Of a stretch of 64,000 nucleotides of DNA, positions 193 through 55,514 are shown one piece after another (position 1 is the first letter of the stretch; the number at the start of each line of letters is the position of its first letter). A program made the position numbers and the translations under genes. The notes under the pieces were generated by a model. The model was not told where the DNA came from. It was given only the letters and a program-made list of their open reading frames with translations, and made no database searches. Source of the stretch: Xestospongia bergquistia (taxonomy: Eukaryota; Porifera; Demospongiae; Haplosclerida; Petrosiidae); assembly GCA_963965975.1 (NCBI GenBank), contig OZ014412.1, forward strand, positions 4,590,501-4,654,500. The letters are read 5' to 3'.

Positions 193-263
193 CTGAGGTG
201 CATTTGCTGCAGTATAGAAACTCACTGGCTCATCTAACCTGTGGAGAATGGAGAACAATCATT

Positions 264-319
<56 letters not shown>

Positions 320-1226
320 CCTTACTCCAAAACAAAGTTATCAACTGGTTCTATTTCAATATCATATTCTAGTTCTTCAGAGCTACTAGTAAAGACATCA
401 ATATACATAGCAATTTCTTGTTCATTAGTATTATTATCTCTAAACACAGTACTACATATTGTACGATAGGAAGTATTGAAACTAGTAGAATATCTGAAAA
501 GAAAAAAAATGAAAGCAATGATTTTTAGTAGCTATCTGTCCATTTAACAATATATCTATAAACCATCCATCCCTTTCGATTATGATACATTAACAATATC
601 ATTACGTTTGTAATTGTAATGGTAGTTTCCAAGTTTGGACATTGGTATCATCTCTAATTACAAAAATAACTGGGTCTTTCTCAGTAGCATTACTGGAGTG
701 TGTCTTCATACGAAACACCTAAGTATTAGAATAAAAAGGTATGAGAATGAGGACTACTACAGGTATAAGAATGAGACCATTTCTACACAGAAAAATAAGC
801 TAAAAAATTGTTGAGTATGTTTTGATCTTATGTTTGAGGAAAACCTGCAAAGTAACTAGTCATGTCAAGCCAGGCCAGGAAGAATGCTACAAAGATGATA
901 GAAGAGACTATTTTAAGATGCTTGGATGAATGTGGCGCCATGTGAGGTGTTGTGTACTTCTACAAACTACTAGTACTTACTGGATCTCTGCTCCTATTGT
1001 TACTGCACTCAATGAAAGTATTATTAATAATCCAAACATTAGTGTTGAGTTTCTTTACGTTCCAGGTCTCGTTAGTACATGGACTACCAAAGAACAGTTG
1101 TATTGTAGGACTCTCGTTAGATAAGCTGTTCAATCTATTACTGCTGCATTCAAACAGTTTTGAAAAGCTCATAGCAAACAGAGAGACCAGTACCAAAATA
1201 AAAAAAGACTGAAAGTAAGATACCAT
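193..1226 (-). pseudogene. SID1-family dsRNA channel copy A, only exons 1-4 present (partial or truncated)
   Basis: Four exons match the complete paralogue at 50896-55475: exon 1 (981-1226, signal peptide starting MVSYFQSFF), exon 2 (606-718), exon 3 (326-493) and exon 4 (193-238). All have GT-AG borders and the same phases, and none contains a stop. They encode the N-terminal part of the SID1 ectodomain, including a Cys/N-glycosylation patch (GSPCTNET). Exon 1 belongs to the A/E/F subtype ([11 protein letters not shown]) rather than the B/C/D subtype. Exon 5 does not follow before the window edge and homology ends at about 185. The copy is therefore either interrupted by an insertion and continues outside the window, or is a truncated pseudogene; I cannot tell which. 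Its 5' flank also resembles that of copies E and F. Confidence 0.7.
265..316. repeat. (CT)n microsatellite in SID1 A intron 3
   Basis: About 26 CT units lie in the intron between exons 3 and 4 of SID1 A. The same position in copies B, D and E carries much shorter CT tracts, so the tract expanded in this copy. It sits in the polypyrimidine region upstream of exon 4. Confidence 0.95.
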
Positions 1227-2225: not shown

Positions 2226-3240
2226 TCTATCAATCCAATTTTCTGATTAAATCTTACTGTTCCTCTATCATCACTCACTTATATAGGTTGGTATAGTTAC
2301 ACAGATCACAACTATAGCCACCTATCAATAAAGCATCACTATCAATGTATTATAGTTATTTATATATAATTTATCATTAATTATTGATCAATGTTTTCAT
2401 GATAAAGTACTGAAAATGGCAGACTACACAGGTGATCAGAAACTCAATCGTTGATAGTAGTTATTAAATTTATGCTTAGATTCTTAACATGTAGTTTTAT
2501 CTGATATAATAATAGTGCCTATAAAATAGAGTATATAGTACAGTTATTAAATAGAATATTCAGTAAATAATGAGGACAGTTTTTACAATTGTTATTATCA
2601 AGAGTTTATCAGTTTAATCTTAAAGAGAAAGCTGATGTCCATTTTATGAAAGACAGCAAGATTGTTGATACATTACATCATATTGGAGAGATTGTATTCT
2701 TCTTTCCTACTGTTCTACAACAGTGTAAAGTCAAGAAAATTGATCATCACCACATCACTGTAAATAAAAAAATATTTAGTTCCAACTATCTATCCAATTT
2801 TCTGATTCCAGTCTTCTTACTGTTCCTCTATCATCACTCAGTTGTAGTGTAGTACCAGTTGGTACAACTACACCTATCACAGCTACAATCACTACCCCCA
2901 CTCATCCTGGAGTGTATACAATACATTGTAGTCCTGTAACTCAAAGTTGCCATCAAGTTAATATCCAAGTTAATAATATTCAAGTTGATAGTACATCATT
3001 AATGATCCCTTTAAATACTTATCTTGATAATATCACTTATATATATTATACCTTAACAGACCATGGGGAGTTGTTGTGACTAATGATGGACATGTTATAA
3101 TAAATGAGTGCAATAGTCACTGTGAAATCTTTTGGTCAGAATAGTGAAGGAAGTGGAAATGTCAAATTCACTTATCCTCCTCTTATCCTATTACTTCAGA
3201 CAACTTTATTTTTGTAACTGATAGTCACAAGATCAAGTAC
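2226..3240 (+). pseudogene. TRIM-NHL relic (filamin-like and first NHL regions)
   Basis: Two pieces are visible. At about 2226-2315 there is a short filamin-domain fragment. At 2600-3235 a longer stretch starts with KEKADVHFMKDSKIVDTLHH, continues through THPGVYTIHC and RPWGVVV, and ends in an NHL fragment. Frameshifts (near 2780 and 3090-3130) and lost segments break the frame repeatedly. No RING, B-box or complete coiled coil is present. The relic lies head-to-head with SID1 A, mirroring intact SID1 E and TRIM5. Confidence 0.85.
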
Positions 3241-3782: not shown

Positions 3783-6700
3783 TTAGAAGACTTTAATGTC
3801 ATCTCTTTTCATTTCCTTTAGTCCATCATCTAGTGTCAATACAAACTAGAGAAAGAGAAAGAGAGAGAGGTTATTTGTCATTTTATTAGATCATACTATC
3901 TCACCAGAAAGGAAAAGAACAGAGCAATTGCAGAGATGAAATGCCAGATATCATGGTTGTCATAGAAATCAAAAATTCTACATTTTTTGTTATAATATTC
4001 ACGAGACTCAGCTGGTGATACCTGCATATATGGTGTTAATTTTAACTATGTAGTTCAACACTAACACAGATTTAACTCAATGCTAAAATAATGTTAATAT
4101 CATTTTAACTCAACACTACCACAGTACTAATTCAATGTTAACACATACTTACTTCCCATTGAGCAACATTGTTAAAATAAAAGTATAAGGCAGCTGCCCA
4201 ACATGGTACTAATATGATAAAAAACACAATAGGCATTGCAGTCCATGGCTCTTTGTAACAAAGCTAAAATGTAGTCAGTAAAGATTGTAGAAATAAATTA
4301 ATATAAACTATTTATAATTTATTAACATACCTTAGAAAATAGATACATTGCAATGAATAGAAGAAAGTTAGCAATGAAAAGTGACAGTATAATTGTAGCC
4401 ACACCCTTGTGTGAAAAGATCATAACAAGACCACTGGATAAAATAAATAATATTATTAATTATATGTCAATTACAGGGGCTGCCTCACATTAAAATGTTG
4501 GCAATCACTGTAATAGCCATCTTGATAAAACGGGCCTAAGTAATTTGAAATTGAATCATATTTTCATCTCCATGGTAACACACTTGCCATATGTCTGGGT
4601 ATGAGACCTTTACAATTTTCTTTGCTATTACAAGGTACACACCAACTTTTAAACCATTTCCAAATTCTCTTGTATGTGTCACATTCTAAACATTACATAC
4701 AAATACATGAGGTATATTATTAATAAGTCACACCCACCTATCAATTTCCCCATCTTCCAGTCATGATAGAAATAGAAGGCAACGCAAAATATAAAAATTG
4801 AAATGACAACAAGAACATAGAGGGTTCCTCTGGTTGGCCAATAATGTATGGAATCTTCATACTAGAGAAAAATATAATGTGTGTCATTTATTTATTATCC
4901 ATATTGTATCAGTCTACTCCTTTCTATTCACAAACCATCCATCCATCCATCCATCCATCCATCCATCCATCCATCCATTCTTACTATGCCAATTAATGTT
5001 AATAAAATGACAACAGCCAAACAGAAGAAGGCAACAAAGGCATCAGAGTGAAGATCACTGTGTCTACTTTGAAATATCTTCCCAATTAAAAGTCCACTAA
5101 TAATAAACATGAATGCTGTGTCTATATGAAATACCATATATATTAAATATATATTCCAATTATAACAATTATGATGTAATTTTAAATATATCCACATACC
5201 AAATTGAAAATTATTATTACTGGGACAAATGTGATAAAAGGAGGACATAAATCCCTCCATTATTAATGCAACACCTGGATGAGGTAGTTATTAAAATAAT
5301 TAGTTATTAATTACAGGATCTTACCCATAGCATAATAGATACCAAAAAATTGAGGGATCCCATAATTCTAAAATTAAAAATAATATTGTGGAAATTTCTA
5401 TCTTTCAAACTCACTTCATATTCTTCTGGATTACGCTTTTGTTCTATTTTTGATTTACAATGTCTAGAAAATCAACACTGTGTCAAGTATAATTACAAAC
5501 ACATATATAGTATAGTGATTATCACATCACTAGTATGTTAATATTGAGTTAACATTAACCTGATTGCAACAATCACAATAAATGTTAGTCCTAGTATTGT
5601 ATATCCAATATTGCTCCAAATACTGTTGAAAGAACTAGAGAACACTTTATGTTCAGCTGCTATATATCAATCAACTCACCTTAGTACTCCAAGAGGACGA
5701 GAACATTTGAAATTATAATAACAAGCATCTTGATTACCACTGCTATTTAATATCTAAATGGACAGATGAATTAGAAATGGATGGATAAAGAGATTGACAT
5801 ACTAGTTGTTCTGCTAGTACCAGCTGGAAGGCAGGGAGTCCATAAAAGATACCCACTGTTATAGTATTCCTAAAGAGATTGACAAATGTATGTGTGTAAG
5901 AGAACTTACCATCCATATACAGAATACTGTTTCTGTAATTCAACAACTGGTGTCTTTAATAGTTCAGGAATTCTTATAGAACTTTCAGTCTAATGAGAGA
6001 GGGAGAGAGGATAGGGAGAGAGAAGAAATAAATAGAAAGAGAGGGAGAGAAGGAGATTGATTTTAATTAATTCCTAGTTAATCATACTTGATCAAGTATT
6101 TTTTGTGCCTCACCAGTATCTATAATATAAAAAGTGAAACAGTACTTAGTTATAATGTTTAGTAACAACCATTGACATTCAATTGTTCTTCGTTGAGATG
6201 AGTGTAGTCTGGGTTGGTTTGTTTATTGATTAGTTGAGCTTCATCTAGAGAACAAGACAAATGGATTAATGGGTGAATAAAATGGATAGATGAATGAATG
6301 ATGGAATAATAATGAATGGATGAATGAATGCATAGCTAATGGACAAATGGATAATTATTATTAACCCATCTCATCCTCTTTATTATTTTTCTTTAGTGTC
6401 CATTTTATAAACAGTGTCCATTTTAGTGTACAACAACAACAAAATTTAAATGTACTAGTAAAGTAAAGAGAATATATTATTATCAACATGTCATCACTAT
6501 AGCAACTATACTAACAAATTATCTATCCATACTAACTGTTTATATAATTTAGAGTTAGATGTCCATTTTACTGCATAACAACAACATGGATATTCACATG
6601 TACTAGATTTCTGTGGTTGGAGGGGAATAACTAAAAGTACTAGTAACAGCTGTTTCCTAAACTAACCTCACTAATTATTTCTTCATCAGGTACCTCAGCT

Positions 6701-9700
6701 ATAGAAAGATAAGCAACAAATGTATGATAGTGAATGAATCAATGGATGGATGAATATGTAGTTAATGGACTAATGGATAATCATTATTAACCTGCGTCAT
6801 CCTCTTCATTTTTTTTATTACAACAAGGACATGAATATTTAATTGTACTAGTAAAATAAAGACAATATATAATATCAAAAATCATCACTCTAGTAACCAT
6901 ACTAACAAATTATTCAATCTATTGGTCTATTTTAATAACTAATTCATCACTTGTAACAAACTATTTGTCTATTATTTACCACCTTACCAATGACAGCAAG
7001 GATATATAAAGATACAACAGACAACAACTCCCAATACAAAAAAGACAATTACAGGAGCACTGATTACAAAAGGGTACTGATTTGCTATTAAGGAAATTAA
7101 TATGACACATAATATCATATATATAATACATAACAATACATAACAATAGTAATATGTATTGTACCTGGTTTCCATGGCTTCACAGTAAGTGTTACATAAT
7201 AAGTATCATACAAGTCACCAGTTAAATTAGAGGGTATTAGCTCCACCTCCTTTAATTTATGACAAAGAGAACCTTCAGCTACAATAACAATAATAAAGAA
7301 GTCATCACCTTCTATTGTTTTATGCTAAAAAGGAAAAAACAATGATAGTAAAATAACTAGACATTATTATGTGTGTACTAACAGCTGTAACAGTGAGTGA
7401 AGCATCTGTAATCATTGTTTGATAGACACCTTTAGAACGAGCATTTTGTAATAAGTCATTTACTGGACACTAGAGACACAGAGAGATAAATGGATGAATG
7501 AATACTAATATTACTTACTACAGCATTTTGTACTGATACAATAGCACAACCACTTTTATTAGAAGAATTAGCTACAACCTGAACAGTTGAATACCCTTCT
7601 GGAAACTTGAAGTAATGTATCTGAGGTGTGTATTAAAAATGTTATCATTTACACAGTAGTATTATAATAGTGAATGTATTAACAAAAATCAATTTCTGAT
7701 CTTACCTGAGGTGCATTTGCTGCAGCATAGAAACTCACTGACTCGTTTAACCTGTGGAAATGGAGAACAATCATTGGCTCTCTCTTTCTCTCTCTCTCTC
7801 ATTCCTTACTCCAAAACAAAGTTATCAACTGGATCTATTTCAATATTATATTCTAGTTCTTCAGAGCTACTAGTAAAGACATCAATATACATAGCAACTT
7901 CTTGTTCATTAGTATTATTATCTCTAAACACAGTACTACATATTGTACGATAGGAAGTATTGAAACTAGTAGAATGCCTGAAATGAAAAACAATGAAAGC
8001 AATGATTTTTAGTAGCTATCTGTCCATTTAACAATATATCTACAAACCATCCATCCATCCAATCAATAAGTGAAAGTACAAAGGTTAGTTATGATAACTA
8101 GTTAGAGTACTATTCAATACATCTGTTATTATGATACATTATCAAAATCATTACGTTTGTAATTGTAATGGTAGTTTCCATGTTTGGACATTGCTATCAT
8201 CTCTAGTTACAAAAACAATTGGGTCTTTCTCAGTAGCATTGCTGGAGTGTGTCTTTACACGAAGCACCTAAGTATGAGAATGAAAAGGTATGAGAATGAG
8301 GATAAAACTTGAAAAAATGGAATAGTTTACATGTATGCTAATTACAAAACCTAGTCTAGTTACATCCCAAAATCTTAATTTCTCAAAATGTCACTTCTCA
8401 AAATACTGACTTTTCATTTCAATACTACAATTAGCTTTTAGATAACAGCTTGGTATTTCTAGTAAATAGTAATAATAAAGATAAGATAACTCCTAAAGAT
8501 AAGATAGCTTCTATAAATTTCATTTTAGCATTATAGCATTATATGGTCTTTAAAGTTTTTGATGATATAATAAGTAATTGCAAAAATAAAATTTATCAAA
8601 TTAGGCAGTTCAGCATATAGAAGCAATAGTTTAGTAGTTTTAGCAATGTTTACTCAGTTTATGATGGAATAGAACTTTTTAATCTTCCACTATATATTGT
8701 ATGTATACATACAATAGTGGAAGATATAGATATTTGACTATTAGAAAAGGAAAGGATTGTAAAAAATTTGGATACGTTCTATGTCCAAATTCTTTAGATC
8801 TGATCAATTGTGCTCAGCTAAGACCACAATGAAGGATGACATTGTCAGAGATGTCAGAGGTCATAATCACTTTCCAAACTTTGCAAAAAAAGCAAAAAAT
8901 AGAAGCTAGGATGAAAAAAAGAACCAGAGAGAAAGTTGAAAGTGTTCCACACATTTACATGGATACACTGTAAAAATTAATATGTCATTTTAACAACTAA
9001 TTTGTAGTTTACATGGATGGATTACTATGGAATTTAGAATTCTCGAGAATTACTCACTATGTAATTTGTTGGCATGTTGTACTGGTACATAACAATAAAT
9101 TATACAATGAGTAATTCACATAAATTCTACATTCCATAGTAATCCATCCATGTAAACTACAAATTAGTTGTTAAAATGACATATTCATTTTTACAGTGTA
9201 CCCTAAAGGATATTGTATGTTGTTGGTCTCTGAATTAATATAAATACTATTGTAATGTAACAGACTACATCATTTTTAATAATATAATTGGCTTTCATGA
9301 TAGTTGATATAGTGGGAGATGGTATTTTAGGAAGTTGACATTTTGAGAGTTGGTATTTGTGGGAGTTGACATTCTGAGGTCTAACCCCTCAGCCTCCCTG
9401 ACTTACATCTTTAAAAAAAATTGAGACTAGCCACAACATGCTCAAAGTTACAAACACAACATTTAACTTACTGCATTTCTACTCCTACTATTACTGCAAT
9501 CAATGAACGTATTATTTATTATCCAAGTATTAGTGTTGAATTTATTTATGTTCTGAGTTTCATTAGTACATGGTCTAACAAATTTCTGTTTTAGTACAGG
9601 ACTCTCCTCACATAAACAATTACAGCTGGTCCCATCATTTTCATAGAGTTGTGAAGAACTCCCAGTAACCAGCACCAAGACAAGTAGACAAAGAAAAGAC

Positions 9701-9705
9701 ACCAT
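3783..9705 (-). CDS. SID1-family transmembrane dsRNA channel, copy B
   Basis: SID1/SIDT proteins are multi-pass membrane proteins tied to dsRNA uptake and, in vertebrates, lysosomal nucleic acid and lipid handling. Exon 1 (9463-9705) encodes a signal peptide starting [13 protein letters not shown] and a Cys-containing ectodomain start; the last exon encodes [20 protein letters not shown] and stops at 3783. Nearly every exon between was traced on GT-AG borders without a stop, in the same phases as the complete copy F. Family signatures: TM1 in the exon at about 6984-7090, [14 protein letters not shown] near 5700, [19 protein letters not shown] across 5090-5255, and SPAESRE then [10 protein letters not shown] near 3950. 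The putative Ser/His/Asp/His/His metal site of the CREST-type fold is kept. Exon 21 needs a GC donor at 4586-4587. Intron 1 holds a MITE, and the loop after TM1 has two alternative exon sets. Overall length should be near 800 aa. Confidence 0.88.
4935..4978. repeat. (ATCC)n microsatellite in SID1 B intron
   Basis: About ten ATCC units lie just 3' of the donor of the exon ending in LTLIGI. Copies C, D, E and F hold 2-10 units at the same place. Minus-strand translation gives a GWMD repeat that is intronic read-through, not protein. Confidence 0.95.
6088..6847 (-). other. Duplicated cytosolic-loop exons in SID1 B
   Basis: Between TM1 and the TM2 exon, SID1 B carries two sets of small exons with compatible phases. 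Set 1: 9a (6792-6847, 56 nt) and 11a (6667-6698, 32 nt, peptide [11 protein letters not shown]). Set 2: 9c (6366-6454, 89 nt, CCCC then KKNNKEDEM), 10b (6170-6244, 75 nt) and 11b (6088-6119, 32 nt, [11 protein letters not shown]). A decayed third copy of exon 9 lies at about 6553-6607. All start after TAG or AG and end at GT, none contains a stop, and 11a and 11b have the same length as exon 11 of copy F. Either set, or 9a with 10b and 11b, keeps the reading frame, so alternative loops are possible. Confidence 0.6.
8682..8726. repeat. Short near-perfect palindrome in SID1 B intron 1
   Basis: The arms read ATCTTCCACTA and TAGTGGAAGAT around GTATGTATACATAC, with a small bulge in one arm. It could form a hairpin or be a short foldback element. 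It is not seen in the intron 1 sequences of C or D. Confidence 0.6.
8964..9200. mobile_element. MITE with about 90-bp terminal inverted repeats, mariner-like
   Basis: The element starts CACTGTAAAAATTAATATG and ends with the near-exact inverse (CATATTCATTTTTACAGTG). Arms of about 90 bp differ at only a few bases and flank a roughly 50-bp core. It is bounded by TA on both sides, as expected for a Tc1/mariner-type TA target duplication. It contains no ORF. It sits in intron 1 of SID1 B and is missing from the same intron of C and D, so it inserted after those copies separated. Confidence 0.85.
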
Positions 9706-11371: not shown

Positions 11372-14300
11372 TTAGAATACTTTAATGGCATCTCTTCTAA
11401 TTTCCTTTAGTCCATCATCTAGTGTTAATACAAACTAGAGAGAGAGAGAGAGAGAGAGAGAGAGGTTACTTTTCATTCTTCACATCATACTATCTCACCA
11501 GAAAGGAAAAGAACAGAGCAATTGCAGAGAAGAAATGCCAGATATCATGGTTGTCATAGAAATCAAGCATTCTACATTCTTTGTTGTATTCACGTGACTC
11601 AGCTGGTGTTGCCTATGTAGATAGTGTTCATGCTGACTATGTAGCTCAACACTAACATAGTTTTTAACTCAATGCTAACATAACATTAATACCATTTTAA
11701 CTCAAACCTAACACAGTATTAATACTATTTTAATTCAAACCTAACACAGTATTAATTCAATGTTAACACATACTTACTTCCCATTGAGCAACATTGTTAA
11801 AATAAAAGTAAAAGGCAGCTGCCCAACATGCTCCTAATATGACCAAAAACACAATAGGCATTGCAGTCCATGGTTCTCTATAATAAAACTAAATGTTGTA
11901 AGTAAAAACAAGTTAATATTATTTTTAACATACCTTAGACAAAAGATACATTGAAGTGAATAAAAGAAAGTTAGCGATGAAAAGTGACAGTATAATTGTA
12001 GCCACGCCCTTGTGTGAAATGATCATAACAATACCACTAGAAAAGATAAATAATGTCATTAATTATATGTCAATTACAGGGGCTGCCTCACATTAAAATG
12101 TTGCCAATCAGTGTAATAGTCATCTTGATAAAACGGGCCTAAGTAATTTGAAATTAAATTATATTTCATCTCCATGGTAATATGCCTACCTTATGTCTGG
12201 GTATGAAACTTTTACAATTTTCTTTGCTATTACAAGGTACACACCAACTTTTAAACCACTCCCAAATTCTCTTGTATGTGTCCCATTCTAAAAATTACAT
12301 ACAAGTACATGAGGTTATTATAAGCCACACCCACTTATCCAGTGCTCCATTCTCCAGTCATGATAAAAATAGAAGGAAAGACAAAATATAAAAATTGAAA
12401 TGACAACAAGAACACAGAGAGTTGCTCTAGTTGGCCAATATGCTATGGAATCTTCATGCTAGAGAAAAATATAATGTGTGTCATTTATTTATTATCCATC
12501 TTGTATCAGTCCACTCCTTTCTATTTACAAACCATCCATCCATTCTTACTATGCCAATTAATGTAAAGAAAATGACAACAGCAAAGCAGAAGAAAGCAAC
12601 AAAGGCATTAGAGTGAACATCACTGTGTCTACTTTGAAATATCTTAACAATTAGTAGTCCACCAATAATAAACATGAATGCTGTGTCTATATGAAATACC
12701 ATATATATTAAATATATATTCCAATTATAAGAATTATGATGTAATTTTGAATATATCCACATACCGAATTGAAAATTATTATTACTGGGACAAATGTGAT
12801 AAGAGGCGGACATAAATCCCTCCATTATTAATGCAACACCTGGATGAGGTAGTTATTAAAATAATTAGTTATTAATTACAGGATCTTACCCATAGCATAA
12901 TAGATACCAAAAAATTGAGGGATGCCATAATTCTAAAATTAAAAATAATATTGTGGAAATTTCTATTTTTCAAACTCACTTTAAATCCTTCTGGATTGCA
13001 CACTTGTTCTTTTCTAGATTTAATATGTCTACAGAATCAACACTATGTCAAGTATAATCACAAACACATATATAGTATAGTGATTATCACATCACTGGTG
13101 TGTTAATATTGAGTTAACATTAACCTGATTGCAACAATCACAATAAATGTCACTCCTAGTATTGTATATCCAATATTGCTCCAAATACTGTTGAAAGAAC
13201 TAGAGAACACTTTATGTTCAGCTGTTATATATCAATCAACTCACCTTAGTACTCCAAGAGGATGAGAACATTTGAAATTGTAATAACAAGCATCTTGATT
13301 ACCACTGCTATTTAATATCTAAATGGACAGATGAATTAGTAATGAATGGATAAAGAGATTGACATACCAGTTGTTCTGCTAGTACCAGCTGGAAGACAGG
13401 AAGTCCATAAAAGATACCCACTGTTATAGTATTCCTAGAGAGATTGACAAATGAATCTGTGTAAGAGAACTTACCATCCATATACAGAATACTGTTTCTG
13501 TAATTCAACAACTGGTGTCTTTAATAGTTCAGGAATTCTTATAGAACTTTCAGTCTAATGAGAGAGGGAGAGAAGAATAGAAAGAGAGGGAGTGAAGGAG
13601 ATTAATTAATTCCTAGTTAATCATACCTGATCAAGTAGTTTTCGTACCTTACCACTGGACTCAATAACTATATTATAAAAAATTGAAAACAATTTGTGGT
13701 AATAATTATCTGTTGCTATAGTAACAACCTCTGACATTCAGTTCATCATCAAGATTACTGTAGTCATCTCTGGAATGAATATTAATTGGTTGAGTGATAT
13801 CTGGAGAACAAGACAAATTGACTAATAAGTGAATGAATGAATGGATGTGTAACTAATGGACAAAAGATCATTATTATTAACCCTTATCATCCTCTTCATT
13901 ATTTTTCTTTAGTGTCCATTTTACTGTACAACAGTCACGTGTATATCTAAATGTACTAATAAAATAAAGAGAATATGTAATTATCATCAGCCATCACTAT
14001 AGCAACTACTGTAGATTGGAAAACATTCTCTTTACAAAAGTTTTATGAAAACATGAACACTTTGAGAAAATTTTGAACACGAGGTGTGTACAAAAATTTA
14101 TTAAGCAATTACCTGTTGCTATATACTAACTGTTGATGTATGGGAGATGATAGAGAACCTTTTGGATCAGGCAGTCCATCTGTAGGTTTCAGATATCTCA
14201 TCTCAGTTGTATCAACACTATATACACTTTCAACACTTCCAACACCACGATATAATACATGCATTACATAATACAAATATTTCAATTTAAATAATGTTAG

Positions 14301-27694: not shown

Positions 27695-28429
27695 TGTACT
27701 TTTATATATTACTGGTTCATTAATATCATATCATCTATCTATTGTAAGTTCAACGTATTATTACATGATAACAAGATTATGTTGATTAAACTCTTGCTAA
27801 GATCAGTCTGTGTTGTGTTACAGAGGAGTGGAAAGTCTTCAGATGATAATGTTTAACTTGAAACTGACCAATCAGATTACTTCATTTAAGTTATGTATAC
27901 CCTAGAGTACATATAACACTAGATATTTATCAGTCACACCATAACGATACTACAGGTGCAGTAAGTAGATAAAAGTTGTGTCTTCAGTGCTTATGTTGAT
28001 AATTCAGTATTGACCTTTTTCTCAGTTTACATAGAATTATGCACTCACATTGTCTGTAACGTTACTATAGTCTCTTCACCTTCGCTACAGTCCCATTATA
28101 GCAAAGAGTTAAACAATACAAATGCTCTCACAAATGTAGATAACAAATCTTTACTTATTACAGACTGACATAACACACACATCTAGTGTATATGATTTTA
28201 CTACAACTTTCATTATGCACTTATTACAATTGCTATCACTACATGTGCACTTTAGACTCATATGATCTGTAATACAATATTGAATAATTGCTCTATATTT
28301 TACATAATGCTCTACATAAAACATGTCAAAACCATTTGTCATGACTGTACTATACATGTTCGTAAAGACCCAATTACCACCTAGACTCTGACTACTATCC
28401 CAAAAAATGCGGGAAGAAGGCTTAAGCCA
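27695..28429. other. PIG-V 3' flank, then intergenic
   Basis: 27695-27950 repeats the 3' flank of PIG-V copy 1 (23139-23390), showing that the duplication unit extends past the gene. Beyond that I see no gene. A minus-strand 68-codon ORF at 28151-28357 has no recognisable features. Confidence 0.6.
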
Positions 28430-28606
28430 GTTAACGATAAAGTCAGTGCTGTTACTGCTGCCCTAATTACTCTCACACACAGAAAAAATGAGATCAGAGA
28501 GCAAAAAGAAGTTGTCAAAGAGGAGATACATGTCATGGTGGAAGAAATGATTGATGTTCTTCGTCAATCTGAGAGACAGCTGACTAGAGAAGTGGACACG
28601 GTCACA
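28430..28606 (+). pseudogene. TRIM coiled-coil relic
   Basis: A 177-bp fragment matches the TRIM-NHL coiled coil (KEEIHVMVEEMIDVLRQSER, then QLTREVDTVT). It is closest to the TRIM5/TRIM6 type (ENEIREQ). Unrelated sequence on both sides and no other domains mark it as a relic. Confidence 0.9.
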
Positions 28607-42828: not shown

Positions 42829-45800
42829 TCATTCTACATCTTTTAATCCATCATCCAATGTCAACATAAACTAGAGACAGAGAGAAAAAGAGAGATGAGT
42901 ACAGTGCAAATCATAGTGACACATGAGAATATTAATAGTAATTGTGACTTCAATTGATGTTTCTTTACAACAATGAAATGAGATAGTCACTATCTTACCA
43001 AAAATGAAAAGAACAGAGCAAGTGCAGATACAAAATGCCAGATATCATGGTTGTCATAGAAATCAAATAATATACAATCTTTGTTATATTGTCGTGATTC
43101 AGCTGGTGATGCCTAAATTGATAATTAGAACTTAATACACTATTAACATCATCACATGTTATATCAACATTAATACAATATTAACACAATGTTATATCAA
43201 CATTAATAAACTATTAACTCAATACTAACATCCTTTTAACTCAAGATTAACACAACTTAAACTCAATACTACTATAATAAAAAATGCAAACTTACTTTCC
43301 ATTGAGCAACATTATTAGAATAGAAATAAAAAGCAGCTGGCCAACACACTCCCATTATGACGAGAAACACAAAAGGCAATACTGTCCATTGCTCTTTAAA
43401 ATAGAACTAAAAATATGTCATGAATAAAATAAAAATAATTGTCTACATACTTTAGATAAGACATGCTTTATAGTGATTAAGAGCAAGTTGGCAACAAAAA
43501 GATATAGTACTATTGATGGTACATCTTTCCTTAAAAATACCAAACAGAAAGAGCTAAAAGAAGTAAATATCATTAGTAATTAATGTCAATTAAAGGGTTT
43601 AACTCACACTGCAATGTTAACCATCAGCATGATTATCATTCCGAAAAGTCTACACTAAATAAATAGAAATTGAGTCATTGTTTGATCTCCATGGTAACAT
43701 ATGACTTCACCTACTTTACGTTTGGGTTGAAGTTCTCTACAATTCTCCCAGCTATTACAAGGTACACACCAGGTTTTGAGCCAATTATAAATTCTCTTGC
43801 AAATATCACACTCTAACAATTATAAATATGCACATTAATATTATTAAGCCACACCCACCTATCCATTGGTCTATCTTCCAATCATGATCAAAATAGAAGG
43901 AGACACAAAATATGAAAATCAAAATGACAACAAGGGCTAAGAGTGTTGCTCTGGTTGGCCAATATGCCTTTGAATCTTCATACTAGAAAAAACATACATA
44001 ATTAAATCAATCAATTAATTAATTACTCCATTGCATTTATTAATCGGTCTGTTTAATTCGATCTGTCCATCTATCTATCCATCCATTCTTACTATGCCAA
44101 TTAAAGTTAGAAAAATGACAACGCCAAAGCAGAAGAAAGCAATAAAGGCATTAGAGTGAATATCAATGCGTCTCCTTTGAAGTAGCTTAACAATTAGTAG
44201 TCCACTAATGATAAACATGAATGCTGTATCTATATGAGATACCATATATATTAAATATATAATATATTCCAATTATAAGAATCATGGCATAATTTTGAAC
44301 TTACCAAATTGAAAATTATTATTACTGGGACAAATGTGATAAAAGGCAGACATAAATCCCTCCATTACTGAGGCAAAACCTAGATAAGGTAGTTATTACA
44401 TAATTAACTGTTAACTACAGGGTCTTACCCATAGCATAATAGATGCCAAAAGATTGAGAAATATCATAATTCTAAATTATAAACAAAGAATAAACTTTGA
44501 AGAAAACTTAAATTTTTTCAAACCTTTTTTTCTTTTCTAGATTTATAATGTCTATAGAATTAACAATGCATTAAGTATGATCACAAATACATATATGATA
44601 CAGTAATATTAATATCACTATTGTGTTAGTATTACATTAACACTAACCTAATTCCAACAATTACAATAAAAGTTAATCCCAGTATCACAAAACCAATATT
44701 ACTCCAAGTACTGTTAAAAGAACTATACAAAATAATATTAAAATCACATCACATTCTATAGCTGTCATTGACTCACCTTAGTGCTCCAAGAGGGTGGGAA
44801 CATTTGAAATTATAATAACAAGCATCTTGATCACCACTGCTATTTAATATCTAAATGGACAGATGAATTAGAAATGGATGGATAAAGAGATTGACATACT
44901 AGTTGTTCTGCTAGTACCAGCTGGAACGCAGGGAGTCCATAAAAGATACCCACTGTTATAGTATTCCTAAAGAGATTGACAAATGAATGTGTGTGTGTGT
45001 GTGCAAATAAGGGGACTCACCATCCATACACAGAGTGCTTTTTATGTAATTCAGAAATAGGTATCTGTAGTTGGTTAGGATTCCGCATTTCATTCTGATG
45101 AAGGTGGGAGGAGAATAACTAAAAGTGTTGTTTCATAAACTAACCTGGATTGTCCCTTTATTGGTCACCTTAGCTATAGAGAGATAAACAACAAATACAC
45201 GATCATTATACAACTGTTGCTATAGTAACAACCCTCACTCTCTGATTCTTTATCAGCAGCATCATAACTGTTATCGGAAGTATTATAAAGTAACCTAGCA
45301 TAGTCTGGAGAGATAGTTGGATGAATGAATGGATGGATAGAAAGTTAAATAAATGGATGAATGTGTAGGCAATGGACAAATGGATAACTATATTTTTAAA
45401 ATATGTCTTTCTCTTCACCTTTTTTCTTACAACAGTAACATGGACATACAAATGCACTAGTAAAATAGAGAGAATATATAATTATTAATAGTCATTACTA
45501 TAGCAACTATAATAACAAATTATCCAACTATTGGTTCATTTTAACAACTAATTCATCATTACTAACAAATTATTAATCCATTCCTTACTAATGACAACAA
45601 GGACATATAAAGATAACACAGACAACAACTCCCAATACAAAGAACAAAATTACAGGAGCAATGATTGCTACAGGATACTGACTAGCTATAAAGGAAATTA
45701 ATATGACACATAATATCATATATATTATACATAACAATACATAACAATAGTAATATGTATTGTACCTGGTTTCCATGGCTTCACAGTAAGTGTTACATAA

Positions 45801-47451
45801 TAAGGATCATATAAATCACCAGATGGATTTGGGAGAGTAATGTTTGCTTGTGTTAGTTTATGACAGAGAGAACCCTCAGCTACAATAACAATAATAAAGA
45901 AGTCATCACTTTCTATTGTTTCATGCTTAAAAAGGAAAAAAAACCAATAATAATAAAATAACTAGACATTATTATGTGTGTACTAACAGCTGTAACAGTA
46001 AGTGAAGCATCTGTAATCATTGTTTGATAGACACCTTTAGAACGAGCATTTTGTAATAAGTCATTTACTGGACACTAGAGACACAGACAGATAAATGGAT
46101 GGATGAATACTAATATTACTTACTGTAGCATTTTGTACTGATACAATAGCACAACCACTTTTATTAGAAGAATTAGCTACAACATGAACAGTTGAATGTC
46201 CTTCTGGAAACTTGAAGTAATATATCTGAGGTGTGTATTAACAAAAAATGTTATCATTTACACAGTAATATTATAATAGTGAATGCAACAATAACAAAAA
46301 TCAATTTCTGATCTTTACCTGAGGTGCATTTGCTGCAGCATAGAAACTCATTGACTCATCTAACCTGTGGAAAATGGAGAATAATCATTATCTCTCTCTC
46401 TCATTCCTTACGTTAAATTAAAGTTATCAACTGGTTCTATTTCAATATTATATTCTAGTTCTTCAGAGCTACTAGTAAAGACATCAATATACATAGCAAC
46501 TTCTTGTTCATTAGTATTATTATCTCTGAACACAGTACTACATATTGTACGATAGGAAGTATCAAAACTAGTAGAATACCTGAAATAAAAAACAATGAAA
46601 AATGACTAATGACTTTTAGTAGCTATCTGTCCATTTAACAATCTATCTACAAACCACCCATCCATTCAACTCAGATTGAGTGAAAGTACAAAGGTTATGA
46701 TAACTGGTTAGAGTACTATAAAGATACATCTGTTGTTATGATAATTAAGATCATTACGTTTGTAATTGTAGTGGTAGTTTCCATGTTTGGACATTGCTAT
46801 TATCTCTAGTTACAAAAACAACTGGGTCTCTCTCAGTAGCATTAACGGATTTAGTCTTCATACGAAACACCTAAGTATGAGAATGGAAAAGTATGAGAAT
46901 GAGGACAACTACAGGTATAAGAATGAGACTAATATGAAACATATAAACTATATTAAGAATGAACAGTATCAAGAATAACAAAATTTGTAGAAGGAAAAAA
47001 TATTTCTGTGTAGAAAAATAGCTATAAAAGTTGTTCAGTATATTATGTATGAGGAAAACCTCCATAGTAACTGTAATAGTCACGCTATAAAGAATTCTAC
47101 AAAGATGATAGAAGAGACTATTTCAAGATGCTTGGATGAATGCGGCGCCATGTGAGGTGTTGTGTACTTCTACAAACTACTTACTGCATTTCTGTACTTA
47201 GTACTTACTGCATTTCTGCTACTCTTGTCGCTGCACTCAATGAACGTATTATTAATAATCCAAACGTTCGTGTTGAGGTTCTTTACGTTCCTAGTCTCGT
47301 TAGTACATGGACTACCAAAGAACAGTTGTATTGTAGGACTCTCGTTAGATAAACTGCTGTCAATGTATTCATATTCGAACAGTTTTGAAAAGCTCACAGC
47401 AAACAGAGAGATCAGTACCAAAATAAAAAAAGACTGAAAGTAAGATGCCAT
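42829..47451 (-). CDS. SID1-family transmembrane dsRNA channel, copy E
   Basis: Exon 1 (to 47451) starts [22 protein letters not shown] (signal peptide) and carries the A/E/F-type [10 protein letters not shown] patch. Its 5' splice site is tandemly duplicated: exon 1 may end at 47209 or 47185, a 24-nt in-frame difference. TM1 is in the exon at about 45590-45690, the [18 protein letters not shown] motif near 44310-44385, and [12 protein letters not shown] then [10 protein letters not shown] near 43020-43110. Exon 9 uses an early donor (AAAAAAG then GTGAAG) that keeps phase. The C-terminus ends LKDVE, 10 residues shorter than copy F, with the stop at 42829. Exons checked are open. It is the closest paralogue of F and lies head-to-head with it, TRIM5 between. 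Confidence 0.86.
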
Positions 47452-47878: not shown

Positions 47879-50137
47879 ATGGTAGAGAAAGCAGTACCAA
47901 GTACCTCCTCAGCTCTTGAGAAACTAAAGGAACAGCTCACCTGTGCTATATGTCTTGACATCTATACTACCCCCAAGATATTATCATGTTTCCATTCTTT
48001 CTGTCAACAATGTCTGGAGAGTCTACCACAGGATACTCAAGGAGATAACTACATCATCTCTTGCCCTATTTGTCGTCATCATACCCAGTTACCTCATCCA
48101 ACAGGAGTAGATGGCTTTCCTGTAGCATTCCAGATTAACAACCTCAAGGAAGTCTATAATCTAATGAAAAAAATATCAGGACATCAACAGGTAAATTGTG
48201 ATAACTGTACTACAACTAATGCCACAGGTTACTGTAAAGAATGTACCAAGTTTCTCTGTCAAGAATGTATTGATGTTCACAAAAAATTTGCTGCCATTGC
48301 TGATCATATGATAACAAATCTTGATAATTTGGTAACCTCTGCCTCTCAGTTACTCCCAGCGAAGCAGGAAATAAAATGTTCTGAACATAACAAGCCTTTA
48401 GAGATCTTTTGTGAAACATGTCAAGAGGTCATCTGTCAGTATTGTACATTACGTGTTCATAAACATCATGATTATGACTTAGTAAATGCATACTATCCGA
48501 AGCAACACAAAAAATTGGAAACAAGTCTGAAGACAGTTAGTGATAACATTATTGCTGTTACTGATGTCCTAACAGCTCTTACAGATAGAGAAAATGAGAT
48601 CAGAGAGCAAGGAGAAGTCGTCAAAGAGGAGATACATGTCATGGTGAAAGAAATGATTGATGCCCTTCGTCAATCTGAGAGACAGCTGACTAGAGAGGTA
48701 GACACAGTCACTGGTAGTAAACTACAGGTGTTATCAGATCAGAAGAAATCAGCTAAAACAAGATTGATTCAACTGAAAGATTGCCAGGAATTTGTGCAAA
48801 AAAGTCTTGAGATAGGCAGTCCTCAAGAAGTGGTGACATCTACAAAACAAATGATAGAGCATATGAGTCATGTGGTTCAACAAGTTAACATTGAGGACCT
48901 TAATCCTAGAGAACAGACTGATGTCCGCTTTGAGAAAAACAGCAACTTTGTTGATACATTATGTAATATTGGAGATATTGTGTTCTCCTCGCCTATTGCT
49001 CTTCAGCAATGTAAAGTCAAGGTCAATCTTCGTTGTATCAGTATGAATGATAAAATGGTTTCATTTCCATTTTCTATCCAATTTTCTGATTCCAGTCTTC
49101 TTACTGTTCCTTTATCATCACTCAGTTGTAGTGTAGTACCAGTTGATACAACTACACCCATCACAGCTACAGTCACTACCACCACCCATCCTGGAGTTTA
49201 TACAATACATTGTAGTCCTGTAACTCGTGGTCATCATCAAGTTAATGTCCAAGCTAATGATGTCCAAGTTGATAGTACCTCATTAAGGATCCCTTTTAAT
49301 CCCTACCTTAATAACATCACTCCAGTACGTACTATACCTGAACTAAATGGACCATGGGGAGTTACTATGACTGATGATAAACATATTATAGTAAGTGAAG
49401 GAAACAGTAATTGTATCACAGTACTTGATAAAGATGGAAATAAAGTGAACTCTTTTGGTCATATGAATGGAAGAATTGGAAATGCTGAATTCTCTCATCC
49501 TCATGGTGTAGCCATTACTGCAGACAACTTCATTCTTGTTTCTGATAACCACAAGATCCAGAAGATATCTATGGATGGGAATTGTATTACATCAGTTGGT
49601 AAACAAGGTAGTGGACCATTGGAATTTGATGTTCCTTGTGGTATCACCATTTCTCCAACAACTGGACTTATTTACATTGCTGATCGTCTTAACCATCGTG
49701 TACAAGTCTTAAATCCTGATCTAACTTTCTCTCACACATTTGGTTCCAAAGGAACAGCTGAGGGACAATTTGATACACCAAGAAATGTTGCTATTGACAG
49801 ACAAGGGATAGTGTATGTGACTGATACTTTTAATCATCGTATCCAGATATTCACTCCTGATGGACAGTTTCTGTCTCAGTTTGGTACCAAAGGATCAAGT
49901 CCAGGTGGATATGGACGTCCATATGGGATTGCGATAGATGATAACAATCTAGTGTATGTTACAGAAGAATCAAGTCGGTTTTTACCTGGTTATAACTATG
50001 TCGTATGCATCTATGCCACTAATGGTGTGTTTATACGTTATTATGGCAGTCTGAGCATTGGTTGTGGATTAACATTTGACAAAGAAGGATATTTGTATGT
50101 TTGTGATTTTTGTAATAATAGAATAGTTGTGTATTAA
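47879..50137 (+). CDS. TRIM-NHL protein 5
   Basis: Single exon, 752 aa, starting MVEKAVPSTSSALEKLKEQL. RING is complete at residues 22-65 (CAIC, CFHSFCQQC, CPICRHH). B-box 1 (CDNCTTTNATGYCKEC) and B-box 2 (CSEHNKPLEIFCETCQEVIC) follow, then a coiled coil (about 210-345), a filamin-like domain (THPGVYTIHC) and NHL repeats from about 480 (GPWGVTMTDDKHIIVSE). The fourth blade has a normal linker (SSPGGYGRPYGIAIDDNN), but the last lacks it (YYGSLSIGCGLTFDKE). TRIM5 and TRIM6 form a subgroup distinct from the 30-42 kb array. It lies between the inverted SID1 E and F genes. Confidence 0.94.
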   Translation: MVEKAVPSTSSALEKLKEQLTCAICLDIYTTPKILSCFHSFCQQCLESLPQDTQGDNYIISCPICRHHTQLPHPTGVDGFPVAFQINNLKEVYNLMKKISGHQQVNCDNCTTTNATGYCKECTKFLCQECIDVHKKFAAIADHMITNLDNLVTSASQLLPAKQEIKCSEHNKPLEIFCETCQEVICQYCTLRVHKHHDYDLVNAYYPKQHKKLETSLKTVSDNIIAVTDVLTALTDRENEIREQGEVVKEEIHVMVKEMIDALRQSERQLTREVDTVTGSKLQVLSDQKKSAKTRLIQLKDCQEFVQKSLEIGSPQEVVTSTKQMIEHMSHVVQQVNIEDLNPREQTDVRFEKNSNFVDTLCNIGDIVFSSPIALQQCKVKVNLRCISMNDKMVSFPFSIQFSDSSLLTVPLSSLSCSVVPVDTTTPITATVTTTTHPGVYTIHCSPVTRGHHQVNVQANDVQVDSTSLRIPFNPYLNNITPVRTIPELNGPWGVTMTDDKHIIVSEGNSNCITVLDKDGNKVNSFGHMNGRIGNAEFSHPHGVAITADNFILVSDNHKIQKISMDGNCITSVGKQGSGPLEFDVPCGITISPTTGLIYIADRLNHRVQVLNPDLTFSHTFGSKGTAEGQFDTPRNVAIDRQGIVYVTDTFNHRIQIFTPDGQFLSQFGTKGSSPGGYGRPYGIAIDDNNLVYVTEESSRFLPGYNYVVCIYATNGVFIRYYGSLSIGCGLTFDKEGYLYVCDFCNNRIVVY

Positions 50138-50895: not shown

Positions 50896-53800
50896 ATGGT
50901 ATCTTGCTTTCAGTCTTTCTTTATTTTGGTGTTTGTCTCTCTGTTTGCTGTGAGCTTTTCAAAACTGTTCGAATATGAATACATTGACAGCAGTTTATCT
51001 AACGAGAGTCCTACAATACAACTGTTCTTTGGTAGTCCATGTACTAACGAGACTAGGAACATTAAGAAATTCAATACTGATGTTTGGAGAATTAATAATA
51101 CGTTCATTGAGTGCAGTAACAATAGGAGCAGAAATGCAGTAAGTTAATAGTTTGTAGAAGTACACAACACCTCACATGGCGCCATATTCTCTTAAACCAG
51201 TCTCTCCTATCATCTTTATAGAATTCTTCTTGACGTAACTTTACATGACCAGTTACTTTGCAGATTTTTTTCGTACATAATATACTGAACAACTTTTATA
51301 GCTATTTTTCTCCACAGAAATATTTTTTCCTTCTACAGATGTTGTTATTCTTGATACTGTTCATTCTTAATATAGTTTATATGTTTTATATTAGTCTCAT
51401 TCTTATACCTGTAGTTGTCCTCATTCTCATACTTTTCCATTCTCATACTTAGGTGTTTCGTATGAAGACAAAATCTGTTAATGCTACTGAGAGAGACCCA
51501 GTTGTTTTTGTAACTAGAGATGATAGCAATGTCCAAACATGGAAACTACCACTACAATTACAAACGTAATGATATTGTTAATGTATCAAATCTTATCATA
51601 ACTAACCTTTGTACTTTCACTTATTGACTGGATGGATGGATGGCTTGTAGATAGATTGTTAAATGGACAGATGGTTGCTAAAAATCATTGCTTTCATTGT
51701 TTTTCATTTCAGATATTCTACTAGTTTCAATACTTCCTATCGTACAATATGTAGTACTGTGTTTAGAGATAATAATACAAATGAACAAGAAGTTGTTATG
51801 TATATTGATGTCTTTACTAGTAGCTCTGAAGAACTAGAATATGATATTGAAATAGAACCAGTTGATAACTTTGTGTTGAAGTAAGGAATGAGATAAAAAG
51901 ATAGAGAGAAAGATTACATTTTATATAGATTACATAATGAGACAGTTAATGGAACAGTAAGTTTCTATGCTGCAGCAAATGCACCTCAGGTAAAGATCAC
52001 TATTTGATATATGTTAACACATTCTCTGATATAATAGTATTGTATAAATGATCATAATTTGAATTATCTTAACACACTCACTTAGATACATTACTTCAAG
52101 TTTCCAGAAGGATATTCAACTGTTCAGGTTGTAGCTACTTCTCCTAATAAAAGTGGTTGTGCTATTGTATCAGTACAAAATGCTACAGTAAGTAATATTA
52201 GTATTCATTCATCTATTTATCTGTCTGTGTCTCTAGTGTCCAGTAAATGACTTATTACAAAATGCTCGTTCTAAAGGTATCTATCAAACAATGATTACAG
52301 ATGCTTCACTCACTGTTACAGCTGTTAGTACACACATAATAATGTCCAGTTATTTTACTATCATTGTTTTTTCCTTTTTAGCATAAAACAATAGAAGGTG
52401 ATGACTTTTTTATTATTGTTATTGTAGCTGAGGGTTCTCTCTGTCATAAACTAACACAAGCAGACATTACCCTTCCAAATCCATCTGGTGATTTATATCA
52501 TCCTTATTATGTAACACTTACTGTGAAGCCATGGAAACCAGGTACAATACATATTACTATTGTTATGTATTGTTATGTATTATATATATGATATTATGTG
52601 TCATATTAATTTCCTTTATAGCTAGTCAGTATCTTGCACAAATCATTGTTCCTGTAATTTTGTTTAGTTTACTGGGAATTGTTGCTGTCTTTGTATTGTC
52701 TTGCTGTCATTAGTAAGGAATGGATAATAATTTGTTAGTAATGATGAATTAGTTGTTATAGTAATGAATGTTGATAATAATGAATTCTCTTTATTTATTA
52801 GTGGATTTAGACCATTTGTATGTTGTTGTTGTAAGAAAAACAATGAAGAGGATGGTATGGGTTAATAATAATTATCCGCTTGTCCATTAGCTACACATCC
52901 ATCCATTCATCTAACCATCCATCCATCCATTTATCTATCCATTCATCCATCTATCTCTCAAGATTTGACTCAATTAATTGGTGCCGAGCCCAGAGATATT
53001 AGTTACAATACTTTCAATAGAGAAATGGAAGAATCAGAGACTAGAGGTTTTTACTTTAGCAAAAGTTGTGTTATGATCATGCATTTATTTATCTTTCTAT
53101 AGCTGAGGCACCCAGTGAAGGGCCAATCAATGAGGTTAGTTTAAGAAACAGCTGTTACTTTTAATTATTCTCCTCCCACCTTCATCAGAATGAAGGCACA
53201 ATGAAGATCACTAACCAACTACAGACACCTATTTCTGAATTACATAAACGGTACTCTGTGTATGGATGGTGAGTTCCCTTACTCGGACACAAACCATGCA
53301 CACATTCATTTGTCAATCTCTCTAGGAATGCTATAACAGTGGGTATCTTTTATGGACTTCCTGCATTCCAGCTGGTACTAGCAGAACAACTAGTATGTCA
53401 ACCTCTTTATCCATTCATTTCTAATTCATCTGTCCATTTAGATATTAAATAGCAGTGGTGATCAAGATGCTTGTTATTACAATTTCAAATGTTCCCACCC
53501 TCTTGGAGTACTAAGGTTGAGTCAATGACAGCTGTAGATTGTAATGTGATTTTAATATTATTTCGTATAGTTCTTTTAACAGTATTTGGAGTAATATTGG
53601 TTTCGTAATACTGGGATTGACATTTATTGTAATTGTTGGAATTAGGTTAGTGCTAATGTAATGTCAACACACTAGTGATATGAATATTACTATACTATAT
53701 TTGTATTTGTGATCATACTTAATGCATTGTTGATTCTATAGACATTATAAATCTATAGAAGAAAAAAAGAACAATCCTGGAAGATACAACGTAGGCTTAA

Positions 53801-55475
53801 AAATATAAGTTTTCTGTAAAATTTTATTTTTATTTTTAATTTTAGGATTATGGTATTCCTCAATTTTTTGGTATCTATTATGCTATGGGTGAGATCATGT
53901 AATTAATAACTACTTATTTTAATAACTACCTCATCCAGGTGTTGGTTCAATAATTGAGGGATTTATGTCTTCCTTTTATCACATTTGTCCAAGCAGTGAT
54001 AATTTTCAATTTGGTACATGAATATAATCAAAATTATGTCATGATTCTTATTAATAGAGTATATGTTTAATATATATGGTATCTCATATAGACACAGCAT
54101 TCATGTTTATTATTGGTGGACTACTAATTGTTAAGATATTTCAAAGCAGACACTGTGATATTCACTCTGATGCCTTTATTGCCTTCTTCTGTTTTGCCGT
54201 TGTCATTCTTCTAACTTTAATAGGCATAGTAAGAATGAATGGATAGATGGATGGATGGATGGACAAAGGGAATTAATTAAGGATAGATAATGAAATACTT
54301 GGATAAGTTGGATAACAAGCATACAGATTGATATGATAATAGTGATTACAGATATTATTTCTCTAGTATGAAGATTCAAAGGCATACTGGGCAATAAGAG
54401 CAACACTCTTAGTTCTTGTTGTCGTTTCAATTTTAATATTTTGTGTCTCCTTCTATTTTTATCATGATTGGAGAACGGGGCAATGGATAGGTGGGTGTGG
54501 CTTAATAATATTAATGTACATATTTATAATTGTTAGAGTGTGATATGTGCAAGAGAATTTATGAGTGGCTCAAAACTTGCAGAGAACTTAAACTCAGACA
54601 TAAAGTAGGCGGAGTCATATGTTACCATGGAAATCAAAAAACGACTCAACTTCTATTTATTTAGGCAAGATTTGTCAAGATGATAATTACACTGGTAGTT
54701 AACATTGCAGTGTGAGTTAAACTCTTTAATTGACACATAATTACTAAAGATATAAATTGCTACTTTTAGCTCTTTCTGTATGGTATTTTTAAAGAATGAT
54801 GTACCATCAATAGTACTATCACTTTTCATCACCAATTTGCTCTTAATCATTATAATGTATATTATATCTAAAGTATGTAGAAAATATTATTTTTTATTTT
54901 ATTCATGACATATTTTTAGTTCTATTTCAAAGAGCCATGGACAGTATTGCCTTTTGTGTTTCTTGTTATAATGGGACTGTGTTGGCCAGCTGCTTTTTAT
55001 TTCTATTTTAATAATGTTGCTCAATGGAGTGTAAGTTTATATTTATAATTATACTAGTATTGAGTTCAAGTTGTGTTAATCTTGAGTTAAAAGGGTGTTA
55101 GCATTGATAGTCTATTAATGTTGATATAACATGATATTAATAGTGTATTAAGTTCTAATAATCAATTTAGGCATCACCAGCTGAATCACGACAATACAAC
55201 AAAGAGTGTCTATTATTTGATTTCTATGACAACCATGATATCTGGCATTTTATATCTGCACTTGGTCTGTTCTTTTCATTTTTGGTAAGATAGTGACTAC
55301 CTCATTTCATTGTCGTAAAGAAACAATGATTCCAGTTGTGATTAATGTTAATATTCTCATGTACCATTATCATTCACGCTGTACTCATCTCTCTCTCTCT
55401 CTCTCTCTCTAGTTTGTATTAACATTAGATGATGGATTAAAAGATGTAAAAAGAAATAAAATTAATGTCTTTTAA
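50896..55475 (+). CDS. SID1-family transmembrane dsRNA channel, copy F (complete model)
   Basis: Twenty-six GT-AG exons were traced and close exactly to 807 aa (human SIDT1 is about 827). Exons: 50896-51138, 51453-51565, 51713-51880, 51929-51989, 52086-52187, 52237-52323, 52382-52541, 52622-52712, 52802-52854, 52963-53046, 53103-53134, 53189-53268, 53326-53392, 53442-53515, 53571-53645, 53742-53790, 53846-53888, 53939-54013, 54092-54228, 54367-54490, 54537-54604, 54665-54711, 54770-54872, 54920-55030, 55171-55284, 55413-55475. Signal peptide at 1-23, ectodomain to about 311, TM1 at about 318-342, cytosolic loop to about 430, then a multi-pass core. Signatures: [63 protein letters not shown] and FVLTLDDGL. 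Candidate metal-site residues are S538, H542, D553, H771 and H775. Channel or transport function is known for the family; specificity here is unknown. Confidence 0.95.
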
Positions 55476-55514
55476 ATATGATTTGACATGCAGATATTGC
55501 ATATTGTATTAATG

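Follow-up and report, generated by a model that had tools for sequence, protein, structure and literature searches.

What has multiplied the SID1-family genes in one short part of the genome of the sponge Xestospongia bergquistia: selection for the uptake of double-stranded RNA (dsRNA) or lipid, or the readiness of the surrounding region to duplicate? The locus lies on contig OZ014412.1 (C2) of assembly GCA_963965975.1 (146.46 Mb, 21 contigs), and the window, i.e. the whole stretch of 64,000 nucleotides that was analyzed, corresponds to C2:4,590,501-4,654,500; coordinates without a contig name are positions in this window. A first-pass annotation had described six copies (A to F) of SID1-family "dsRNA channel" genes between positions 193 and 55475, divided into two subtypes, and read them as a sign of selection. 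Both limits proved exact, and the six copies were borne out as five complete genes (B-F) and a partial A (its first four exons), with a seventh copy (X) just outside the window. The explanation that we favor, and hold to be probable, is that a seven-gene array of SIDT/ChUP type grew by local duplication within a duplication-prone array of TRIM-NHL genes, and that gene conversion then homogenized parts of its members.

The copies belong to the SID1 family and are SIDT-like

In a Pfam profile search, PF13965 matched copy B with 486.5 bits (E=1.6e-145) over profile positions 3-594 of 594 and copy E with 456.4 bits (E=2e-136), and exons of the other copies were matched by the same profile in a genome-wide search. 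The SID1-family membership claimed in the first-pass annotation was confirmed in this way, and a motif scan found the SID1 motifs where it had placed them. The scores of B and E rule out chance motif matches, and the profile and solved-structure searches together rule out a different multi-pass family.

Among solved chains, the nearest relatives of B were SIDT1 (E=3.9e-121) and SIDT2 (E=6.3e-118). SID-1 of Caenorhabditis elegans, the dsRNA transporter of systemic RNA interference (RNAi), belongs to the same Pfam family, but the match to its membrane part was much weaker (E=1.9e-32). The likeness to SIDT1 and SIDT2 extends to the extracellular domain: residues 77-328 of B align by sequence with SIDT1 residues 75-325, and the window fragment of A matched the extracellular domain of SIDT2 (E=4e-8). 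This fragment alone gave no Pfam match at E≤0.01, because the PF13965 profile begins near residue 186. The zinc-site residues (Ser, three His and Asp, as named for SIDT2 in PMC10272179) are identical in 5/5 complete window copies (B-F), and so is the residue that corresponds to SIDT1 E555; translations read by eye showed the zinc-site residues also in A, in X and in two further genes of this assembly, P1 and P2, described below. Transmembrane (TM) helices were placed from the alignment and from hydrophobic stretches.

The profile scores, the ranking of SIDT1 and SIDT2, the outer-domain matches and the zinc-site residues, all of them read from sequence, identify the copies as SIDT-like proteins within the SID1 family. 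The relationship to human SIDT1 and SIDT2 (ChUP family) covers the whole length of the proteins, whereas the sponge genes differ from them in forming a seven-gene array with mosaic exons and in having a highly variable TM1-TM2 loop. The label "dsRNA channel" was not supported in this form, being the name of the Pfam family and not a tested property, and the copies being SIDT-like rather than SID-1-like; for SIDT2 itself, an account in PMC10272179 disputes the channel role and favors lipid hydrolysis.

Seven genes form the array and two more lie elsewhere on the contig

The exons of B were read by hand, the other copies were modeled by spliced alignment of the B protein with curation, and the variable loop exons were curated by reading the DNA. 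Copies A to E lie on the minus strand. Exons 1-4 of A occupy 1226..193; its other 22 exons lie beyond the window, and the full gene (26 exons, open frame of 818 amino acids) ends at C2:4,586,422, ~4.1 kb left of the window. Then follow B (9705..3783; 29 exons, 877 amino acids), C (16112..11372; 26 exons, 822 amino acids) and D (21894..17313; 27 exons, 846 amino acids), all with open frames, and E (47451..42829; 26 exons), whose frame of 788 amino acids requires the use of two unusual donors, gtgaag after exon 9 and gtttga after exon 16. Since E also has a shortened C-terminus, stopping about eight residues early, it may be decaying. F lies in the opposite orientation on the plus strand (50896..55475; 26 exons, 809 amino acids, open), and X was found at C2:4,579,044 to ~4,583,787, ~6.7-11.5 kb left of the window, with an open frame of 825 amino acids. 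The array, in the order X, A, B, C, D, E, F, spans C2:4,579,044 to 4,645,975; in all seven models 100% of the introns are GT-AG and there are no internal stops.

Exon end phases, which the first-pass annotation had described as shared, are the same in every copy outside the exons between TM1 and TM2; within these loop exons the claim fails, exons having been gained or lost. Extra loop exons are present in B and D, and that of D (19681-19758) is similar to the adjoining exon (19823-19894). Two kinds of repeats accompany the genes: 33-base tandem repeats of a TTAATGTTGACTTAAG-like type stand just 3′ of E (42645-42787) and F (55503-55644), and related degenerate repeats were seen in the intron preceding the exon that starts with (A/V)(S/T)PAESR. 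The long intron 1 of B carries a palindromic insert (8980-9230), perhaps a small mobile element.

A search of the assembly with PF13965, in which 36/36 candidates were scored, yielded 30 exon matches confined to two places on C2. The second place, ~2 Mb away, holds a tandem pair, P1 (C2:2,508,272-2,518,204) and P2 (C2:2,518,584-2,524,402), whose first exons are uncertain, bringing the SID1-family genes found in the assembly to nine. Membrane-domain comparisons gave 61-90% identity within the set X and A-F, 38-43% between this set and human SIDT1, 33-37% between it and P1/P2, and 86% between P1 and P2. Because identity within the array exceeds that to human SIDT1 and to P1/P2, the sequences indicate a lineage-specific array formed by local duplication, as had been proposed, and rule out ancient orthologues; P1 and P2 appear to represent a second, old and divergent SIDT lineage, also in tandem.

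The copy number is above the printed counts for other animals, as had also been suspected: three genes each in C. elegans, Tribolium and Bombyx and none in Drosophila, as given in PMC2395250, and two in human, SIDT1 and SIDT2 (PMC11208740). The insect sil genes and C. elegans tag-130/chup-1, likened here by their description, are likewise multi-copy SIDT-like genes, but number three against seven plus two in this sponge; PMC2395250 reports N-terminal, extracellular motifs of tag-130 that are common to vertebrate and insect proteins. A pattern search of other contig collections returned 55 genome-contig and 21 viral-contig matches, none of which was confirmed as a relative. No SID1 expansion in a sponge was found in literature titles and abstract openings, a search that did not reach supplements and is weak evidence of absence.

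Exons 2-7 have been homogenized across subfamilies

When each of B, C and D was paired with E and with F (six pairs), synonymous divergence (dS) was 0.51-0.70 in exon 1 and 0.49-0.58 in the membrane exons (the last fifteen), as against 0.07-0.19 in exons 2-7. The introns follow the same course. When A-D are compared with E and F, introns 5, 6 and 7 share 382/392, 442/471 and 620/640 bases, respectively, and introns 2, 3 and 4 share 1003/1157, 311/379 and 576/698, as against 192/332, 568/854, 650/1031 and 296/440 for introns m12, m7, m2 and m1. A second well-matched block comprises introns m14 and m13 around TM2-TM3 (289/320 and 380/392), and a weaker one m9 and m8 (344/396 and 501/592).

Different segments also group the genes differently. 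At sites where two copies are set against three, E+F prevails over C+F in the membrane part (217 vs. 5), and C+F over E+F in exons 2-8 (33 vs. 8). The segment trees conflict accordingly, joining B, C and D in exon 1 (support 100), C and F in exons 4-6 (100), C, E and F from exon 5 to intron 7 (100), and E and F in the membrane exons (100). With X as outgroup, A falls with E/F in exon 1 (99) and with B in the last seven exons (96), its membrane domain being B-like despite an exon 1 of the A/E/F type. Because the genes are mosaics, the proposed division into A/E/F and B/C/D subtypes is only partly right: it holds for exon 1 and 700 bp upstream, and does not extend to the whole gene. Exons 4 and 7 each come in two forms, which are likewise distributed across the subfamily lines.

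Shared tracts were assessed by shuffling the 931 variable columns of B-F 2000 times. In 6/6 between-group pairs the best shared tract lay in exons 2-8 and scored above every shuffle (p=0.0005, the minimum possible); because shuffling assumes exchangeable sites, more weight was placed on the introns and on the tree conflicts. The longest conversion-like tract links C (14580..15480, minus strand) and F (51684-52581) from exon 3 to intron 7, with 99 of 123 variable sites matching, and overlaps an inverted repeat of 97% identity (14792-15508/51656-52372).

Constraint is an unlikely cause of the likeness of exons 2-7, the introns being equally alike and X not. The branch of X measures 0.53-0.73 in exons 2-7 and 0.39-0.73 in the membrane part, and exons 2-7 are therefore not simply ultra-conserved. 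Unequal crossing-over is unlikely to be the sole source of the mosaics, because F, on the opposite strand, has tracts in common with C. These patterns suggest that gene conversion homogenized exons 2-7, which encode the extracellular domain, across the subfamilies, including the opposite-strand F. P1 and P2 present a milder case, with 743/774 bases the same from exon 3 to exon 7, introns included, as against 686/891 from TM8 to the end; their outer domains are nearly identical and their loops differ.

Divergent parts and selection

Between B, C, D and E, F, identity falls to 39% in TM8, 50% in the 7-8 loop and 53% in TM9, as compared with 79-95% from TM2 to TM7. Since the helices that diverge between subfamilies are also the least like human SIDT1, to which TM7-TM8 and the 7-8 loop are only 12-15% identical, the TM8-TM9 region may simply evolve fast. 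In SIDT1, TM5-TM9 is described as a flexible lipid-binding module, and the TM1-TM2 cytosolic loop is credited with RNA binding (PMC11208740).

The ratio of nonsynonymous to synonymous divergence (dN/dS) in the membrane exons was 0.28-0.32 between subfamilies and 0.46-0.61 within groups, and in exons 2-7 it was 0.34-0.63 among the B-F pairs. Purifying selection acts on the larger part of the coding sequence.

The array is embedded in a TRIM-NHL array

Six TRIM-NHL genes or near-complete copies (T1-T6) and three remnants stand among or beside the SID1 genes, and more TRIM-NHL stretches lie left of X. On the plus strand, T1 (30826..33051) has an open frame of 741 amino acids encoding RING, B-boxes and NHL repeats; T2 (33933..36173) is open; T3 (37061..39213) has a single frame break before the B-box; T4 (40193..42002) has several breaks and a deletion; and T5 (47879..50137) is open and stands head to head with E. 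T6 (55759..58020, minus strand), in tail-to-tail arrangement with F, is open. The combination of RING, B-box and NHL repeats is seen in T1, T2, T5 and T6, T3 and T4 being broken. One remnant between A and B (2604..3237, plus strand) corresponds to approximately residues 336-564 of the intact genes, with several frame breaks, and another (28334..28618, plus strand) retains only the coiled-coil part. The start codons of E and T5 are 427 bp apart (47452-47878), and a shared promoter is possible; upstream of A, the TRIM-NHL remnant is oriented as in this pair.

The best solved matches of the TRIM-NHL proteins were Thin (E=1.6e-64) and TRIM71 (E=2.9e-64). They have the RING, B-box and NHL repeats of the TRIM-NHL E3 ligases (TRIM71/LIN-41, TRIM2/TRIM3, Thin, Brat) and differ from these in their large tandem arrays. 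In a genome-wide NHL search, 150/898 candidates were scored, so that the counts are lower bounds, and certain of the places may belong to other proteins. There are at least 117 NHL places, with arrays on C2, C7 and C11; at least 30 of them lie around the SID1 array (C2:4,435,020-4,717,829), at least 19 lie in C2:2,585,507-2,719,552, 61 kb right of P1/P2, and at least 3.2% of the assembly has a scored NHL place no more than 65 kb away.

The same interval holds three copies of the gene for PIG-V, the mannosyltransferase of the glycosylphosphatidylinositol (GPI) anchor, and the search of the assembly yielded no further PIG-V (4/4 candidates scored). All three are on the plus strand: a copy at the head of D that lacks its 5′ part (22116..23135), and two large exon frames at 23659..24810 (E=4.4e-48; further 3′ exon near 24995-25264) and 26149..27240 (E=6.1e-52; further 3′ exon near 27425-27694). 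Two of the copies carry a 33-base coding repeat of unequal length (24021-24176 and 26487-26597).

At the right end of the window, exons of a MeaB (MMAA-like) GTPase (59372-60280, minus strand) stand next to T6, and a scavenger-receptor cysteine-rich exon (63718-63963, minus strand; PF00530, E=5.2e-15) belongs to a family for which expansion in a sponge has been described (PMC10855680). The DNA has 32% GC, a median intron of 60 bases (129 introns) and a CpG observed/expected ratio of 0.21, and the demosponge Amphimedon has a genome of this kind; no tRNA was detected in the window by ARAGORN in its bacterial setting.

Discussion

The family, the zinc residues, the gene structures, the mosaicism and the position of the genes are plain to see, and from them a course of events can be proposed. 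Local duplication within the NHL-repeat (TRIM-NHL) array would have produced the seven SID1 genes; conversion would then have maintained the likeness among A-F of exons 2-7 and of some of the membrane core, namely introns and exons near TM2-3 and TM4-5. Exon 1, the cytosolic loop between TM1 and TM2, and TM8-TM9 would have remained divergent between subfamilies. By analogy with SIDT1 and SIDT2, each of these membrane proteins would form a dimer, with an outer domain of double-jelly-roll fold able to contact nucleic acid and a membrane core of the zinc-site, CREST lipid-hydrolase type; hydrolase activity is reported for SIDT2 (PMC10272179), and in C. elegans SID-1 dsRNA is bound between the two outer domains (PMC11194109). 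With such a division of labor, the copies would have a common ligand-facing part and would differ in trafficking or regulation (exon 1 and the loop) and in the flexible lipid-binding module.

Because the SID1 genes stand in a TRIM-NHL array and PIG-V is present in three copies, the region appears to duplicate readily and the SID1 genes to have multiplied with it, in which case duplication rate rather than selection would have set their number. As an account of the copy number, local duplicability is no worse than selection for dsRNA uptake, and the step from expansion to selection taken in the first-pass annotation does not follow, since PIG-V also tripled and the outer domain was mostly homogenized, not diversified.

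Several observations weigh against this explanation. MeaB lies within the TRIM-NHL region and is single-copy in the assembly, hence not everything in the region duplicates. Of the conversion tracts, those of B-F and D-F are weak (scores 20.0 and 22.0 vs. shuffle maxima of 16.1 and 20.0). The dN/dS of the TM1-TM2 loop ranges from 0.62 to 1.93 between copies, and that of exons 2-4 of A from 0.47 to 1.10 (0.77-1.10 vs. B, C and D), with few changes, so that diversification may have occurred in the loop or in A. Finally, the protein tree roots the array only tentatively, placing human SIDT1 and P1/P2 beside C/D with weak support (57 and 85) and not beside X.

Adaptive expansion for dsRNA or lipid uptake, by which a filter feeder would gain from environmental or viral RNA through dosage or specialization, is the strongest of the alternatives and in our judgment unlikely. 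Nine SID1-family genes as against up to three in the animals with printed counts (PMC2395250), purifying selection on the copies, and the response of sponges to dsRNA given by soaking and feeding (PMC3146823) would all fit it; the embedding of the array among TRIM-NHL genes, the multiplication of PIG-V in the same interval and the homogenized outer domain would not. Moreover, SID-1 is not mentioned in the cited part of that sponge RNAi account (PMC3146823), and according to PMC2395250 systemic RNAi in C. elegans does not require tag-130, and knocking down the three sil genes of Tribolium by RNAi had no effect, a test that the authors themselves treated with caution.

The crossing of subfamily boundaries by the exon-4 and exon-7 variants, seen in the alignment and in the trees, would suit an immune-like diversity engine, in which TRIM-NHL and SID1 genes make up one RNA-related complex and conversion shuffles these exon forms into varied receptors. 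The NHL domains are closest to TRIM71, Thin, TRIM2 and TRIM3, and both SID1 places lie in NHL arrays or 61 kb from one, a nearness to be set against the share of the genome, 3.2% or more, that is no farther than 65 kb from a scored NHL place. Exons 2-7 are mostly near-uniform, however, with few variants segregating among copies; the NHL family is large and widespread, so that adjacency may be chance, and the two SID1 places, being on one contig, are perhaps not independent. We hold such an engine to be decidedly unlikely. A defensive version of it seems very improbable: SIDT types, with one common RNA-contacting outer domain maintained by conversion and with differing lipid-handling cores, would import environmental or viral RNA across membranes, TRIM-NHL ligases would act on the imported RNA, and conversion would renew the repertoire by reshuffling a few exon variants. 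A history in which an unstable region has left mostly non-functional copies would agree with the unusual donors and short C-terminus of E and with the broken neighbors (several TRIM-NHL copies and one PIG-V copy), but the frames of A, B, C, D, F and X are open over 26-29 exons with GT-AG introns and dN/dS in the membrane exons is below 1, which makes general decay very improbable. Some segments are highly identical, as uncollapsed haplotypes or misassembly would produce; such an artefact is nonetheless extremely unlikely, given a single contig, differing orientations and neighbors, and membrane exons in which dS between copies is 0.09-0.58.

The first-pass observation was thus right, even conservative, while the function that it named is putative and selection is one of two explanations for the expansion. 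Beyond the six copies, what is new is that the subtype split is not gene-wide and that the array is embedded in a TRIM-NHL array together with a tripled PIG-V; the pattern of conversion across copies was unexpected. This is clearly a case of gene-family evolution from known parts and not a new kind of system. SID1-family proteins are usually studied in few copies, and a seven-copy array with a common outer domain and divergent lipid-binding modules is a natural experiment on which of their parts have to stay constant and which are free to vary. The expansion of an RNAi-linked gene can here be explained by genomic position and gene conversion, and for this reason copy counts alone are no proof of selection for dsRNA uptake.

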